Assembly: GCF_030269665.1 (NCBI RefSeq)
Contig: NZ_BSTS01000002.1
Coordinates: 248,001-312,000 of the forward strand
Length of the DNA stretch: 64,000 nt
Direction of reading: 5' to 3'
From: Actinomycetospora sp. NBRC 106375
GTDB lineage: Bacteria > Actinomycetota > Actinomycetes > Mycobacteriales > Pseudonocardiaceae
The notes beneath the pieces were generated by a model, which was not told where the DNA came from, made no database searches, and saw nothing but the letters and a program-made list of their open reading frames with translations. The number at the start of each line of letters is the position of its first letter. The first letter of the stretch is position 1. A program made the position numbers and the translations under genes. This document shows, one piece after another, positions 16,544 through 22,267 of this stretch.

Positions 16544-17323
16544 ATGACCGAGCAGCCCGGGCAGACCGAGCACGACGACCCCACCACCGGACCGGTCGCG
16601 ACGGCCCAGGCCCCGACCACCGACGGCGACGGCGAGGCCGCTCCGCCGAGCGGGCGCCGGCCGTTGAAGCGCTCCACCCGCATCGCGCTGATCGTCATCG
16701 CGGCCGTCGCGGTGCTCGCCGCGATCGCGTTCCTGGTGAACTACCTCGTGGTCTCGAGCCGCATCGTGTCCACCGACAACGCCCAGATCGACGGCACCCA
16801 GATCCCGATCGTCGCGCCGGCCAGCGGGACGCTGGTGGACTGGTCGGCGACGCAGGGGACCGTGCTGCGCCGCGACGAGGCCGTGGGACGGGTCCAGCTG
16901 CAGGGCGCCTTCGTGCAGCCCCAGCTGACGATCCGCGCCCCCGCCGCCGGCACGGTCGCCACCGACGACACGACCGAGGGCGCCTTCGTCACGGCGGGCA
17001 CGCAGCTCGCGGTCGCCTACGACCTGTCCGACCTCACCGTCACCGCGCGCGTCGACGAGACCGACATCGACGCCGTGCGCGTGGGCGCACCCGTCGACAT
17101 CACCGTGGACGCCTACCCGGGCGTCGACCTGACGGGGTCGGTCCGCGAGATCCAGGGCGGCGCCGCCGGGGTCTTCTCCCCGCTCCCGCAGTCCAACAGC
17201 TCCGGGAACTTCCAGAAGGTCACCCAGGTGATCCCCGTGAAGATCACGATCGATGATCCCCGCGGTCTCGACCTCATCCCCGGCATGAATGTCACGGCCG
17301 ACATCCACAAGGACGACCGGTGA
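16544..17323 (+). CDS. EmrA/HlyD-like membrane fusion protein
   Basis: Second adaptor protein, 259 residues. About 45 disordered N-terminal residues, one transmembrane helix (IALIVIAAVAVLAAIAFLV), then VSTDNAQIDGTQIPIVAP, the classical EmrA/HlyD DNAQ motif, and a short barrel domain with LTVTARVDETDIDAVRVG. It lacks the long coiled-coil hairpin of Gram-negative EmrA, which fits a bacterium with no outer-membrane TolC. AGGTGAG precedes the ATG. Probably works with the MFS pump downstream. Confidence 0.82.
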   Translation: MTEQPGQTEHDDPTTGPVATAQAPTTDGDGEAAPPSGRRPLKRSTRIALIVIAAVAVLAAIAFLVNYLVVSSRIVSTDNAQIDGTQIPIVAPASGTLVDWSATQGTVLRRDEAVGRVQLQGAFVQPQLTIRAPAAGTVATDDTTEGAFVTAGTQLAVAYDLSDLTVTARVDETDIDAVRVGAPVDITVDAYPGVDLTGSVREIQGGAAGVFSPLPQSNSSGNFQKVTQVIPVKITIDDPRGLDLIPGMNVTADIHKDDR

Positions 17324-17357
17324 CCGGAATGCGAGAGAAGGGACCGTTCGTGACTCT

Positions 17358-17375
17358 TTCTCCGGAAATGGAGAA
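17358..17375. promoter_or_regulatory. Palindrome between adaptor and MFS genes
   Basis: TTCTCC-GGAAAT-GGAGAA, 6-bp perfect arms, in the 88-bp gap before the MFS start. Could be a repressor site or a small transcript hairpin; the MFS gene has no good ribosome-binding site, which hints at a separate promoter here. Confidence 0.35.
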
Positions 17376-17411
17376 CGAGCCCCGACGGCCCTCCACTGCG
17401 ACACTCTAGAA

Positions 17412-19145
<1,734 letters not shown>

Positions 19146-19148
19146 CGG

Positions 19149-21122
19149 TCAGGCGCGGGCCCGCAGCCGGCGCAGCGTCGCCTCCCGGCCGGTGGCGCGG
19201 GTGAACAGGTACTCGGCGCGCTCGTAGGACAGCCGCGTGCGGCCGGTGTCGGGGCAGCGGTCGGCGGACGCCGGGGTGCGCGCGGGACCGGGCCGCCGGT
19301 CGGTGAGGAAGACCGGGCCGCGCGTCCGACCGTCCAGCAGCTCGTCGAGCAGGCGGGCGGTGCGCGACCGCCAGGTCACCGCGCCGTCGTGGGTGCGGCG
19401 GTCGTCGCGGTCGAGGTCGGTGACGTCGAGGGCGAGCACGGCGCGGACCGGCGCCCGGGACTCGTGCAGCAGCGACCACAGGGCCCGCTCGCGCACCGGC
19501 ACGGCGGGGTCCGCGCACAGGGCGGCGACGCGGTCGGGGGCGACGGGGGCCGCGGGCGGCGCGTCGGCCGCGCGGCGGGCCAGGCCGTCGGCGAGCTCGG
19601 GCCGCCCGGACCACGCGGCGAACGAGCGGACCGCGGCGCGGTGCCGGTTCCACGTCGTCGCGGCGGCCCCGTCCCACGAGGTGTGGACCACGCGGGCGAC
19701 GTCGTCGGCGTCCACCGCCGCCGGCGGCGTCGTCGCGCCGAGGTCGCGCACCAGCCGGCCCAGCGTCTGCGCGTAGGCGCGCCGGGCCGGCGCGGCGAGC
19801 CCGGCGAGGAAGCCGTCGACGAGGTCCCCGAGCGTCGGTCCCGTCGTCGGGGCCGCGGGCGCGGCGACGTCGGCCGCCCGCGCGTCGAGGAACGCGCGCT
19901 CGGCGTCGTTGTGCGTCAGGGCCGCCGCGCGGGCGTACTCCCGGCGCGCCTCCTCGCCCCGGCCGAGCCGGCGCAGGAGATCGGCGCGGACCCCGGGCAG
20001 CAGGTGGTAGTCGCGCAGGCGGGGGTCGTCGCGCAGGGCGTCGACGAGGGCGAGCCCGTCGGCGGGTCCACGGGCGCGGGCGACGGCGACGGCGCGGTTC
20101 AGCGCGACGACCGGGGTGGGCAGGACGGACGCGAGCCGGTCGTACAGCGCGGCGATCGCCGCCCAGTCGGTGTCCTCGGGGCGGCGGGCCTGGGCGTGGC
20201 AGACGGCGATGGCGGCCTGCAGGACGTACGGGCCGGGCGCGCCCCCGAGGTCGCGGGCCCGCAGCATCGCCGTGAACCCCCGGCGCACGTGGACCGGGTC
20301 CCACCGGCCGCGGTCCTGCTCGTGCAGCGGGATCGGCGAGCCGTCCGGGGCGGTGCGCGCCGCCGTGCGCGAGGCCTGCAGCTCCATGAGCGCGACCAGG
20401 CCGTGCACCTCGGGCTCCGACGGCGCGAGGGCCGCGAGCCGGTGCCCGAGGCGCAGGGCCTGCCCGCAGAGGTCCGCGCGCACCAGCTCCCGGCCCCAGG
20501 TGGCCGCGTAGCCCTCGTTGAACACGAGGTACACGACCTCGAGCACCGACCGCAGGCGCGCGGCCAGCTCCTCGCGGCCGGGCATCGCGAGCTCGGCGCC
20601 CGCCGCGGCGAGGGCCCGCTTCGCGTCGGCGATGCGGCGGCTGACCGTCGTCTCGTCGACGAGGAAGGCGCGCGCGATCTCGGCGGCGGACAGACCGCCG
20701 AGCAGGCGCAGGGTCAGGGCCAGCCGTCCCTCGGTGGGCAGCACCGGGTGGCACGACAGGAACATGAGCCGCAGGACGTCGGCGTCCTCGTCCGGAGCGT
20801 CGGCGTCGTCCGGCACCTCGGCCGTCCCGGGTGCCTCGGACGCGGCCCGCTCGTGCGCCCGCTCCGCGCGCTGCGCGCGCCGCAGGTGGTCGACCGCGCG
20901 GCGCTTGGCGACGGCGGTGAGCCACGCGCCGGGGTTGTCCGGCACGCCCTCGGCGGGCCACTGCTCGAGCGCCGCGACGAGGGCGTCCTGGGCGAGCTCC
21001 TCGGCCAGCCCGACGTCGTGGACCATGCGCGTGAGGGCGGCGACGACGCGGGCGGCCTCGAGCTTCCAGACCGCGTCGACGCGGGCGCGCGGCTCCTCGC
21101 CGCCCCCACGCGCGGACGTCAC
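19149..21122 (-). CDS. ECF42-type sigma factor fused to a degenerate tyrosine-recombinase-like domain
   Basis: 657 residues; ECF42 sigma factors are normally about 410. Residues ~1-190 hold sigma regions 2 and 4 (AEELAQDALVAALEQWP; GLSAAEIARAFLVDETTVSRR). Residues ~200-410 are the ECF42 C-terminal helical extension with VVYLVFNEGYAATWG. Residues ~425-657 read as a tyrosine recombinase: a SAM-like N-terminal part (RRAYAQTLGRLVRDLG, TWNRHRAAVRSFAAW) and a catalytic-type part (LWSLLHESRAPVRAVLALDV, GPVFLTDRRPGPAR, RLSYERAEYLFTRATG). The first catalytic Arg is replaced by Pro, the beta-hairpin Lys is missing, and the protein ends before the HxxR and Tyr motifs. GTG start overlaps the DGPF gene stop, typical ECF42 context. 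Confidence 0.85.
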   Translation of the reverse strand: MTSARGGGEEPRARVDAVWKLEAARVVAALTRMVHDVGLAEELAQDALVAALEQWPAEGVPDNPGAWLTAVAKRRAVDHLRRAQRAERAHERAASEAPGTAEVPDDADAPDEDADVLRLMFLSCHPVLPTEGRLALTLRLLGGLSAAEIARAFLVDETTVSRRIADAKRALAAAGAELAMPGREELAARLRSVLEVVYLVFNEGYAATWGRELVRADLCGQALRLGHRLAALAPSEPEVHGLVALMELQASRTAARTAPDGSPIPLHEQDRGRWDPVHVRRGFTAMLRARDLGGAPGPYVLQAAIAVCHAQARRPEDTDWAAIAALYDRLASVLPTPVVALNRAVAVARARGPADGLALVDALRDDPRLRDYHLLPGVRADLLRRLGRGEEARREYARAAALTHNDAERAFLDARAADVAAPAAPTTGPTLGDLVDGFLAGLAAPARRAYAQTLGRLVRDLGATTPPAAVDADDVARVVHTSWDGAAATTWNRHRAAVRSFAAWSGRPELADGLARRAADAPPAAPVAPDRVAALCADPAVPVRERALWSLLHESRAPVRAVLALDVTDLDRDDRRTHDGAVTWRSRTARLLDELLDGRTRGPVFLTDRRPGPARTPASADRCPDTGRTRLSYERAEYLFTRATGREATLRRLRARA

Positions 21123-21442
21123 GGGCCCATCACCCGCCGCAGCACGCTGTCGCCGTCACCGACGATGCGGCGGAACCGGCGGGAGACCTCGAGCGCCTCC
21201 TCGTGCGAGGACACCTCGACCAGCGCGAAGCCGAGGATCGCCTCCTTGGCCTCCACGAACGGCCCGTCGGTCACGGTGATCTCGTCGCCGTGCGAGGTCA
21301 CGGTCGTGCCGCCGGGCTCCAGGCCCCCGGTGGCGATGAGGATGCCGGCGGCGGTCATCTCCTCGATGAACGCGCCCATCTCGGCGAAGAGGGCCTCGTC
21401 GGGCCGGCGGCTGTTCTCCCCGGTGGTCATCAGGTAGCGCAT
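21119..21442 (-). CDS. YCII/DGPF-domain protein
   Basis: Small ferredoxin-fold protein of the YCII family, 107 residues, containing TVTDGPFVEAKE, the DGPF motif. These proteins accompany ECF42 sigma factors and are their usual targets (known for Streptomyces); the biochemical role is unknown. ATG chosen because AGAGGAG lies 7 nt upstream; the longer in-frame reading begins inside the palindrome and lacks a site. Overlaps the sigma gene by GTGA, forming a two-gene operon. Confidence 0.9.
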   Translation of the reverse strand: MRYLMTTGENSRRPDEALFAEMGAFIEEMTAAGILIATGGLEPGGTTVTSHGDEITVTDGPFVEAKEAILGFALVEVSSHEEALEVSRRFRRIVGDGDSVLRRVMGP

Positions 21443-21497
21443 CTCGAACTCCTCTGTCTCGGGTGACGACGGCTTCCGGCTCCCCGTCGACCGGGGC

Positions 21498-21534
21498 GAT
21501 GCGACAGGGAACGCCATGCGTTCCCTGTCGTATC
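21498..21534. promoter_or_regulatory. 37-bp palindrome between divergent DGPF-sigma and DUF998 genes
   Basis: Arms CGACAGGGAACGC (21502-21514) and GCGTTCCCTGTCG (21518-21530) are exact inverse repeats around CAT; beyond them three more bases pair after one mismatch, giving 17-bp arms. It lies 56 bp from the DGPF start and 59 bp from the DUF998 start. Each arm ends in CCTGTCG reading outward, similar to the TGTCGA -35 element reported for ECF42 promoters, so it may be two back-to-back ECF42 promoters or an operator. Confidence 0.7.
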
Positions 21535-21592
21535 AGCCCGGGCGACGTCCTGGCGAGCGTCCGACCGGAGGACCCGACGAGAGGAACCCGAG

Positions 21593-22267
21593 ATGAGCAC
21601 CCCGACCCGCACCCAGACCCGCACCCAGGTCCCCGCCGCCGTGTCCGACCCCGGCACCCGCATCCGGCTGGGCGCCCTCGCCGCCGGTCTCGTCGGGTGG
21701 GCGGCGGTCTCCACCGCGCAGGCGGCCACCCGTGCGGGGTTCGACATCCTCGTCCACCCGCTGAGCCTGCTCTCCACCGGCGACCTCGGGTGGCTGCAGA
21801 TCACGAACTTCGTCGTCGCCGGCGTGCTGACGGTCGTCGGCGCCGGCGGGCTCCGGCAGGCCCTGCGCGGCACGCACGGTGGTGTGTGGGCGCCCCGCCT
21901 CGTCGCGGCCTCAGGGGTCGGCCTCGTCCTCGCCGGTGCCATGGTCATGGACCCGGGCGCGAACTTCCCCGTCGGCGCACCGGCGGACCTCCCGCTCGTG
22001 ACCTGGCACGCCTACGGCCACATGGTCGCCGGCACGATCACGTTCACGACGCTGATCGCCGCCTGTTGCGTCCTGGGCCGCCACTTCTCCCGCGGCGGGC
22101 GCCGCGACCTCGCCGTGGTCTCCCGCGCCGCGGGGCTCGCCCTGGTCGCCGGCTGGGGCTGGGCGATGGCCGGCGGAGCCGGCGGCACCCTGACCCTCGC
22201 GATCGGGGCGATCGCCGCCATGGTGTGGGTCGCCGCCGTGGCGCTGCGGCTGCGACGGACCGTCTGA
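21593..22267 (+). CDS. DUF998 family membrane protein
   Basis: Unknown function, 224 residues with six transmembrane helices after a ~20-residue Thr/Arg N-terminus. FDILVHPLSLLSTGDLGWLQ and MDPGANFPVGAP fit DUF998 (pfam06197). GAGAGGAACCCGAG precedes the ATG. Divergent from the DGPF-ECF42 operon across a large palindrome, so probably in the same regulon. A strong terminator follows. Confidence 0.85.
   Translation: MSTPTRTQTRTQVPAAVSDPGTRIRLGALAAGLVGWAAVSTAQAATRAGFDILVHPLSLLSTGDLGWLQITNFVVAGVLTVVGAGGLRQALRGTHGGVWAPRLVAASGVGLVLAGAMVMDPGANFPVGAPADLPLVTWHAYGHMVAGTITFTTLIAACCVLGRHFSRGGRRDLAVVSRAAGLALVAGWGWAMAGGAGGTLTLAIGAIAAMVWVAAVALRLRRTV

Follow-up and report, generated by a model that had tools for sequence, protein, structure and literature searches.

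An ECF42 sigma factor with a catalytically dead recombinase tail that probably reads the -35 region of its promoters

Promoters are generally understood to be read by regions 2 and 4 of the sigma factor itself. The window analysed here, a 64,000-nucleotide stretch of an Actinomycetospora genome, encodes an ECF42 sigma factor that runs on, within one open reading frame, into a tail derived from a tyrosine recombinase. Is this tail a relic, or does it take part in finding the promoter? The original prediction, made from the sequence of the window, allowed for both an inert relic and a captured DNA-binding module that tethers the sigma factor to particular DNA. The interpretation favoured here is that -35 recognition has passed from sigma region 4 (sigma4) to a domesticated, catalytically dead recombinase clamp, the protein in the window belonging to the main clade of such fusions; the sequences compared make this likely. 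It goes beyond the earlier reading, since the tail would do more than tether the protein: it seems to stand in for the usual -35 recognition.

A recurrent fusion with a disarmed recombinase

The fusion in the window is a real, in-frame protein. No stop interrupts the open frame (19149-21122, minus strand), residues 1-417 are an ECF42 sigma factor, and residues 422-657 are derived from a tyrosine recombinase (Table 1). Pfam searches find Sigma70_r2, Sigma70_r4_2, and DUF6596, which bears out the complete ECF42 sigma factor predicted for the first ~410 residues; a TPR_11 match is weak (E 0.23). The C-terminal ~230 residues had been described as recombinase-like, with a search against two families proposed as a check. 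The SAM-like family, Phage_int_SAM_1, is found at residues 443-504 (E 1.9e-5; 25.3 bits against a cut-off of 22.3), and Phage_integrase is not, the tail alone falling below detection in the Pfam search. The description is further upheld by L242, an intact standalone recombinase that is 48% identical to the tail over 232 aligned positions (E 2e-50) and itself matches Phage_integrase (E 1.1e-21). Searched against solved structures, a profile built from tails and standalone relatives hits XerD (1a0p, E 4.4e-13) as well as a XerC-like protein (4a8e, E 4e-12).

Table 1. Features of the fusion locus, in window coordinates
Feature	Position	Strand	Remark
ECF42 sigma factor with recombinase-derived tail, fusion gene	19149..21122	-	657 aa, GTG start
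Sigma region 2, residues 24-85	20868..21053	-	Pfam Sigma70_r2
Sigma region 4, residues 119-171	20610..20768	-	Pfam Sigma70_r4_2
Sigma4.2 recognition helix, residues 156-170, relaxed in fused sigma factors	20613..20657	-	Asp at residue 166
DUF6596 extension, typical of ECF42, residues 189-289	20256..20558	-	Pfam E 1.2e-34
Tyrosine-recombinase-derived tail, residues 422-657 and stop	19149..19859	-	sequence comparison
SAM-like core-binding domain, residues 443-504, with TTWNRHRAAVRSF motif	19611..19796	-	Pfam Phage_int_SAM_1
Pro558 codon, catalytic Arg I position	19449..19451	-	alignment
LSYERAEYLF motif, residues 631-640, putative DNA-reading helix	19203..19232	-	
Box II remnant TLRRLR, residues 649-654	19161..19178	-	
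YCII-sigma promoter half-site TTCCCTGTCGCAT, at the -35 position	21499..21511	-	recombinase-type, predicted
YCII-sigma promoter -10 element CGAC	21486..21489	-	
DUF998 promoter mirror half-site TTCCCTGTCGTAT	21521..21533	+	divergent, predicted
DUF998 promoter -10 element CGAC	21543..21546	+	
YCII-family gene, 4-nt overlap with fusion gene	21119..21442	-	upstream of sigma
DUF998 gene, divergent partner	21593..22267	+	

The same architecture is found well beyond the window. A scan of GTDB genomes confirmed 135 tail relatives, and the best 80 of these 135 loci were taken further. The survey of other ECF42 proteins that had been suggested as a check finds the tail in frame with the sigma factor, by a script rule, in 77 of the best 80 loci, counting the frame-shifted L054, in which only the end of the sigma factor shares the frame of the tail. 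The remaining three comprise L068, which proved to be fused on rechecking (a paralog had given a longer match, and the locus was first misread as unfused), and L036 and L038, which have a frame break between the two parts. Genera with the fusion include Streptomyces, Kitasatospora, Amycolatopsis, Saccharopolyspora, Nonomuraea, Actinoplanes, and Microtetraspora, among others. Most fusions stop within a few residues of a common point (...LSYERAEYLFKQAT...YTLRQLKPR), and some extend for 10-25 residues. Because the fusion turns up again and again among actinomycetes, ending at almost the same place, it is not a product of chance or frameshift, and the suspicion that a sequencing error had merged two separate genes can be set aside. 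In the window there is also no room downstream for a full recombinase disguised by a frameshift: a convergent MFS gene ends only 3 nt away from the stop at 19149.

The tail is present in 10 of 18 genomes of the genus Actinomycetospora. An even draw from the class gave a tail match in 31 of 296 genomes, 12 of which are fusions by open-frame length; in the 11 besides the window's own, a sigma factor was found in the locus in every case.

Sequence comparison also bears on whether the tail is maintained. Five Actinomycetospora sequences give dN/dS values of 0.29 for the tail, 0.33 for regions sigma2 and sigma4, and 0.15 for the extension. The SAM-like domain is detected in 63 of 65 tails scanned, and W491-N492-R493-H494 and the stretch from S632 to F640 are invariant across 60 aligned fusions, with E634 replaced by Pro or Thr in a few fusions outside this 60-row set. 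The two alignments (A1 and A2) hold 60 and 65 of the 77 available rows; L054 is left out of them, as are L036, L038, and L068, which are also left out of some counts.

The fused sigma factors form a single clade, with support of 98/99 in a 43-row tree in which the recognition helix was masked and of 99 in a 73-row tree. In a 164-row tree, the same holds apart from L036, L038, and the cut locus L148; the first two were relabelled as tail-bearing and L148 was dropped, and five further loci that are cut before the tail (L137, L139, L145, L152, and L158) had for that reason looked tail-less at first. The fused sigma factors group with tail-less ECF42 paralogs, in trees drawn with no outgroup from other ECF groups. 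By these comparisons, the tail was acquired once, the fusion is old and widespread, and the tail is no relic. An inert relic or an assembly error would accord with dead catalysis and a catalytic half that has been cut, and with the broken frames of L036 and L038 and the shifted frame of L054. However, this is extremely improbable: the same fusion, with nearly the same end, is carried by many species within one clade, and the neutral evolution expected of a relic is not seen in a tail whose dN/dS is so close to that of the sigma regions and whose motifs are invariant.

A phage donor of the tail was considered and rejected, as there is no tail match in 50,697 phage records. The nearest intact relatives of the tail that were found lie on actinobacterial plasmids and in actinobacterial genomes.

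The catalytic residues of the tail have largely been lost. In the window, Arg I is replaced by Pro558 and the beta-hairpin Lys is deleted, both as predicted from the sequence. The prediction that the HxxR and Tyr part is missing holds for the Tyr, the chain ending directly after box II, but not for HxxR, of which the remnant TLRRLR persists with His changed to Arg. Among the catalytic residues, only the second Arg is kept. In contrast, 21 aligned standalone relatives retain Arg I in 21, Lys in 19, His in 20, Arg in 21, the last His in 21, and Tyr in 21, whereas among 94 fusions Arg I is kept in four and Tyr in none. Five fusions from one genus (L172, L173, L174, L178, and L245) carry an almost entire recombinase, including HxxR and the last His; in all five Arg I is replaced by Pro, and Tyr by Phe in four and by Leu in one. 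Since these near full-length fusions already lack Arg I and Tyr, the sequences suggest that the recombinase module was disarmed before it was trimmed.

A YCII gene lies upstream of the fusion in 78 of 80 loci and a divergent DUF998 gene in 55 of 80. In the window, the conserved MRYLM places the YCII start at the ATG at 21440-21442 rather than at the mechanical ORF start at 21517. Many tail-less ECF42 genes of the genus have two tandem YCII matches upstream (L002, L114, L116-L118, L120, L121, and L123-L127), whereas fused ones show one. On the other side, a gene for an HlyD-type membrane fusion protein (16544-17323) and the MFS transporter gene (17289-19145), both on the plus strand, converge with the fusion gene. 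The HlyD gene is present in one of 80 relatives' loci (L021, 90%) and an MFS match in five (80% in L021, 26-31% in the other four). The window has no Rfam matches at gathering scores. The genome of the window also holds at least seven further ECF42 paralogs (L002-L008), all without the tail.

Promoters of fused and tail-less sigma factors

The promoter predicted for the YCII-sigma operon in the window has the form TTCCCTGTCGCAT-N9-CGAC, and the classic arrangement TGTCGA-N16-18-CG[AT]C is absent. Throughout the fused loci, the DNA upstream of YCII carries [AG]TTCCCTGTCACAT, then 8 or 9 nt, then CGAC. Among loci with at least 700 bp of upstream DNA, a model of this half-site finds a match in 72 of 77 fused loci but in 0 of 67 tail-less ECF42 loci, while the classic model matches 45 of 67 tail-less loci, leaving 22 unmatched, and only 2 of 77 fused ones; reversed-sequence controls for the two models gave 0, 0, 1, and 1. 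The classic spacing in tail-less ECF42 loci agrees with the promoters of the ECF42 sigma factor RpoE10 of S. meliloti given upstream of mapped starts, which by our own count fit TGTCGG-N17-CGTC (PMC6180224). The five fused loci that lack the half-site on the sigma side include four that retain the mirror arm (L034, L085, L089, and L096) and one without either arm (L033); L073, with shorter upstream DNA, is a sixth.

A gap scan of 6-10 nt among the 77 fused loci yields 67 sites, in which half-site and CGAC are separated by 8 nt in 30 and by 9 nt in 37. Where DUF998 is divergent, a mirror copy of the half-site completes a large inverted repeat, with a gap between the arms of most commonly 8 nt (44 of 67) and a range of 8 to 16 nt; 9 of 67 loci have a single arm only. 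Fused loci can be assigned to class II, with the half-site at the -35 position, or class I, in which it precedes a classic or near-classic -35; of 96 fused rows, 13 belong to neither class. A half-site with CGAC is found on the DUF998 side in 65 of 78 class II loci.

Two other identities for these elements were rejected. A strict recombination core site is at odds with the variable arm spacing and the single-armed loci. Nor is TGTCACAT an ordinary -35 element, because its TGTC stands 16-17 nt before CGAC in fused promoters and 23-24 nt before it in the tail-less promoters read.

In 12 genomes searched for further target genes, half-site plus CGAC gives 11 matches, all at the fusion locus by coordinates, the exact form being missing from three of the 12. 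The bare 13-mer TTCCCTGTCRCAT gives 17 matches in 10 whole genomes (0 in the reversed control), 15 of them at the fusion locus and two at the standalone recombinase of genome G279. Within the genus, a looser promoter pattern matches the fusion locus in 10 of 10 tail-bearing genomes, along with scattered matches that lack the CACAT part in tail-bearing and tail-less genomes alike. Inverted repeats are often the mark of a dimeric regulator, and a third protein could in principle bind this palindrome, the tail being incidental to it. That is very unlikely: the site tracks the tail (72 of 77 fused loci, none of 67 tail-less), and its sole other occurrence in the 10 genomes lies by a recombinase from the tail's own family.

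Taken as comparisons of sequence, these data establish the fusion, the loss of catalysis, the conservation and single origin of the tail, and the contrast between promoters.

Relaxed sigma4, intermediates, and the source of the half-site

Sequence variation is lower overall in the fused sigma factors than in their tail-less counterparts (mean entropy difference -0.52 across 403 columns). Even so, the columns that are most unduly variable in them, in a ranking that, like the early residue counts, includes a few mislabelled rows, are 166, 159, and 156, the top three of 403, all within the sigma4.2 recognition helix. The FastTree change counts, which include no mislabelled rows, give 33 changes at residue 166 in 78 class II sigma factors against 0 in 67 tail-less ones, and 32 against 3 at residue 159; the next-ranked columns by this count (110, 101, and 131) are in part located outside the helix. 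In sigma-H-type chains, the second Arg of SRIFRAR is what residue 166 aligns with, and this residue is presumably equivalent to Arg176 of E. coli sigmaE, a -35 contact. The window has T159, R162, and D166, where tail-less sigma factors usually have T159, Q162, and R166.

This variability also weighs against the idea that TTCCC is a new -35 element which sigma4 itself has come to read, with the tail serving another role such as a protein contact. TTCCC begins 21-22 nt before CGAC, near the 22-24 nt of TGTCGA in tail-less promoters, which favours the idea. However, the half-site is nearly invariant while the contact positions vary (V, T, R, or A at 159; A, D, G, or E at 166), and the same 13-mer stands near a recombinase with no sigma factor at all, so that this explanation is regarded as quite improbable.

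Seven fused sigma factors with intact Q162 and R166 form one clade (100/98) that is sister to the rest (100/97). In their promoters, one or two direct half-sites precede a -35 of classic or near-classic form (TGTCGA, CGTCGA, GGTCGA, or TGTCTG), which is followed by a -10 of CGAC or CGAT. In the six that were matched by pattern, the last half-site precedes the -35 by 41, 43, 52, 52, 53, and 54 bp, two groups about one helical turn apart. Q162 and R166 are both kept in 5 of 5 strict class I but 2 of 78 class II sigma factors (Fisher p 7e-7, uncorrected for descent, because the contrast between the classes is a single split in the tree). TGTCGA and R166 are also what the tail-less outgroups carry, which makes class I the apparent ancestral state and class II the derived one. 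By eye, a CC[AT]GGTCA-like element recurs between half-site and -35 in class I promoters (upstream regions of L068, L093, L098, L200, L201, L203, and L204), and it may be a degenerate half-site or the site of another factor.

The half-site has a counterpart among free-standing enzymes. L242, the complete recombinase of G279, has ATGTGACAGGGAA-N7-TTCCCTGTCACAT about 0.9 kb upstream on the same contig, with arms 13/13 identical to the half-site, and its helix YERAEYLFK is the same as in the fusions. Half-site variants such as ATTCTGTGTCACAC occur at L102, L175, L253, L254, L256, and L189, directly upstream of the recombinase gene in L102 and L175, with half-site-like matches in L253 and L254 grouped in much the same way. 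An inverted pair of half-sites lies near 7 of 10 close standalone recombinases (a count that retains L273-L275, classed as close before their helix was read) and in 1 of 680 shuffles. No such pair was found near 24 distant recombinases, many of them with only about 1.5 kb of flank. Six of the seven repeat-bearing close recombinases have the helix RLSY[EP]RAE[YH]LFK, the seventh, L256, being unmatched by this pattern, whereas the three without a repeat have a different helix, RLSYRRAEEIF. The LSYERAEYLF helix presumably lies opposite the Cre helix that bears Arg259. In Cre, this Arg contacts a half-site base (PMC6486577). The relaxation of sigma4 and the presence of the same half-site beside standalone recombinases are also established by sequence.

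A third, single half-site lies near the recombinase start in L102 (2767) and L175 (1434), and also in L253 and L254. Because it adjoins the start, these recombinases may regulate themselves, as the arrangement suggests. The fused protein might instead act as an autorepressor, its tail binding the inverted half-sites when off the polymerase and shutting both promoters while sigma4 still reads the -35. Both promoters are indeed overlapped by half-sites, and the third half-site of some standalone relatives is close to their own gene. Nevertheless, such repression would leave unexplained the disappearance of TGTCGA (retained in 2 of 77 fused loci), the degeneration at residues 166 and 159, the narrow spacing of 8-9 nt to CGAC, and the nine of 67 loci without a second arm, and it is considered unlikely.

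The earlier idea of a captured module that tethers the sigma factor thus gains support from the conservation of the tail, the half-site in the sigma factor's own promoters, and the decay of sigma4. In the mechanism proposed here, an ancestral actinobacterial ECF42 would have gained, once, a tyrosine recombinase that recognised TTCCCTGTCACAT half-sites. Catalysis would then have been lost, with Arg I replaced and Tyr either changed to Phe or Leu or cut away together with everything after box II, and the DNA-reading parts retained, namely the SAM-like domain with TWNRHR and the helix RLSYERAEYLFK. At first the half-site may have acted as a tether, located 41-54 bp ahead of an otherwise ordinary ECF42 promoter. 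In the main clade, to which the protein in the window belongs, it would later have moved to the -35 position, 8-9 nt before CGAC, with TGTCGA disappearing; sigma4, freed from reading DNA, could then have let its sigma4.2 contact residues drift. We infer that the tail binds the half-site, that this binding recruits polymerase, and that sigma4 no longer reads DNA. In the fused protein, sigma2 would read the -10 and the recombinase clamp the -35 region, and the protein would fire two back-to-back promoters, that of its own YCII-sigma operon and that of the divergent DUF998 gene. The truncated clamp would have to fit beside polymerase at -35.

The broader claim, of a sigma factor whose -35 recognition was taken over by an attached dead recombinase with each step preserved in living genomes, is held with somewhat more reserve, as rather more probable than not. 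The preserved steps would be a free recombinase with its inverted repeat, near full-length fusions that have Tyr changed to Phe and act from an upstream half-site, and truncated fusions in which the half-site is at -35 and sigma4 is blind.

Two further observations concern the standalone recombinases. In L242 (1093-1163 and 1157-2979), the perfect repeat is directly upstream of two small genes, with the recombinase after them; one of these resembles a ParA fragment by eye, and the region is possibly a plasmid partition or resolution module. In another genome, L257 is a decayed or split copy, a 123-aa frame with 89% identity to the C-terminal portion of that recombinase of L242.

Relation to known systems

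The protein in the window shares with ECF42 sigma factors its sigma2 and sigma4 regions, the DUF6596/TPR-like extension, and the upstream YCII gene, but differs in its recombinase tail of ~236 residues, in the half-site that stands for the -35, and in the loss of sigma4.2 contact residues. Its kinship on the other side is with XerC/XerD-type recombinases and actinobacterial integrases such as L242 and L102, as the profile matches and the half-site of L242 indicate. No mention of an ECF42 or other ECF sigma factor fused to an integrase or recombinase was found in the papers searched, a set apart from the main ECF42 and ECF classification papers, which could describe one; a review on such sigma factors mentions, in the part available, only the TPR-rich extension (PMC8999054).

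Partial parallels exist for each half of the proposal. In sigma appropriation by phage T4 AsiA/MotA, a protein other than sigma recognises an element, centred near -30, that takes the place of the -35 (PMC6755090), much as the tail may do here. The T4 system, however, relies on two separate phage proteins acting on sigma70, whereas the reader in the fusion would be covalent and recombinase-derived, and no homology is claimed. TnsF of Tn6022-like Tn7 transposons is an inactivated tyrosine recombinase co-opted for DNA site choice, with a known active relative (PMC10293859); it selects transposition targets, while the fusion tail would select promoters. For the ALOG regulators of plants, the DNA-binding domain of a tyrosine recombinase is proposed to have been taken over for transcription regulation (PMC3537659), but these are eukaryotic proteins with the core-binding domain only and without a sigma factor.

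A mobile-element enzyme seems, then, to have become the -35 reader of a bacterial sigma factor, with stages of the change kept in living genomes, and in many soil actinobacteria a former enzyme of mobile DNA probably helps to direct RNA polymerase to its start. If true, this would be a new class of promoter recognition and would offer a direct test of how promoter specificity is rewired through domain capture. It would also supply a sharp DNA motif and two candidate target genes for the fused sigma factor, and might yield orthogonal sigma/promoter pairs. Plasmid copies of the fusion, in the annotations seen, are named simply as sigma factors, and the class is for this reason easily overlooked.
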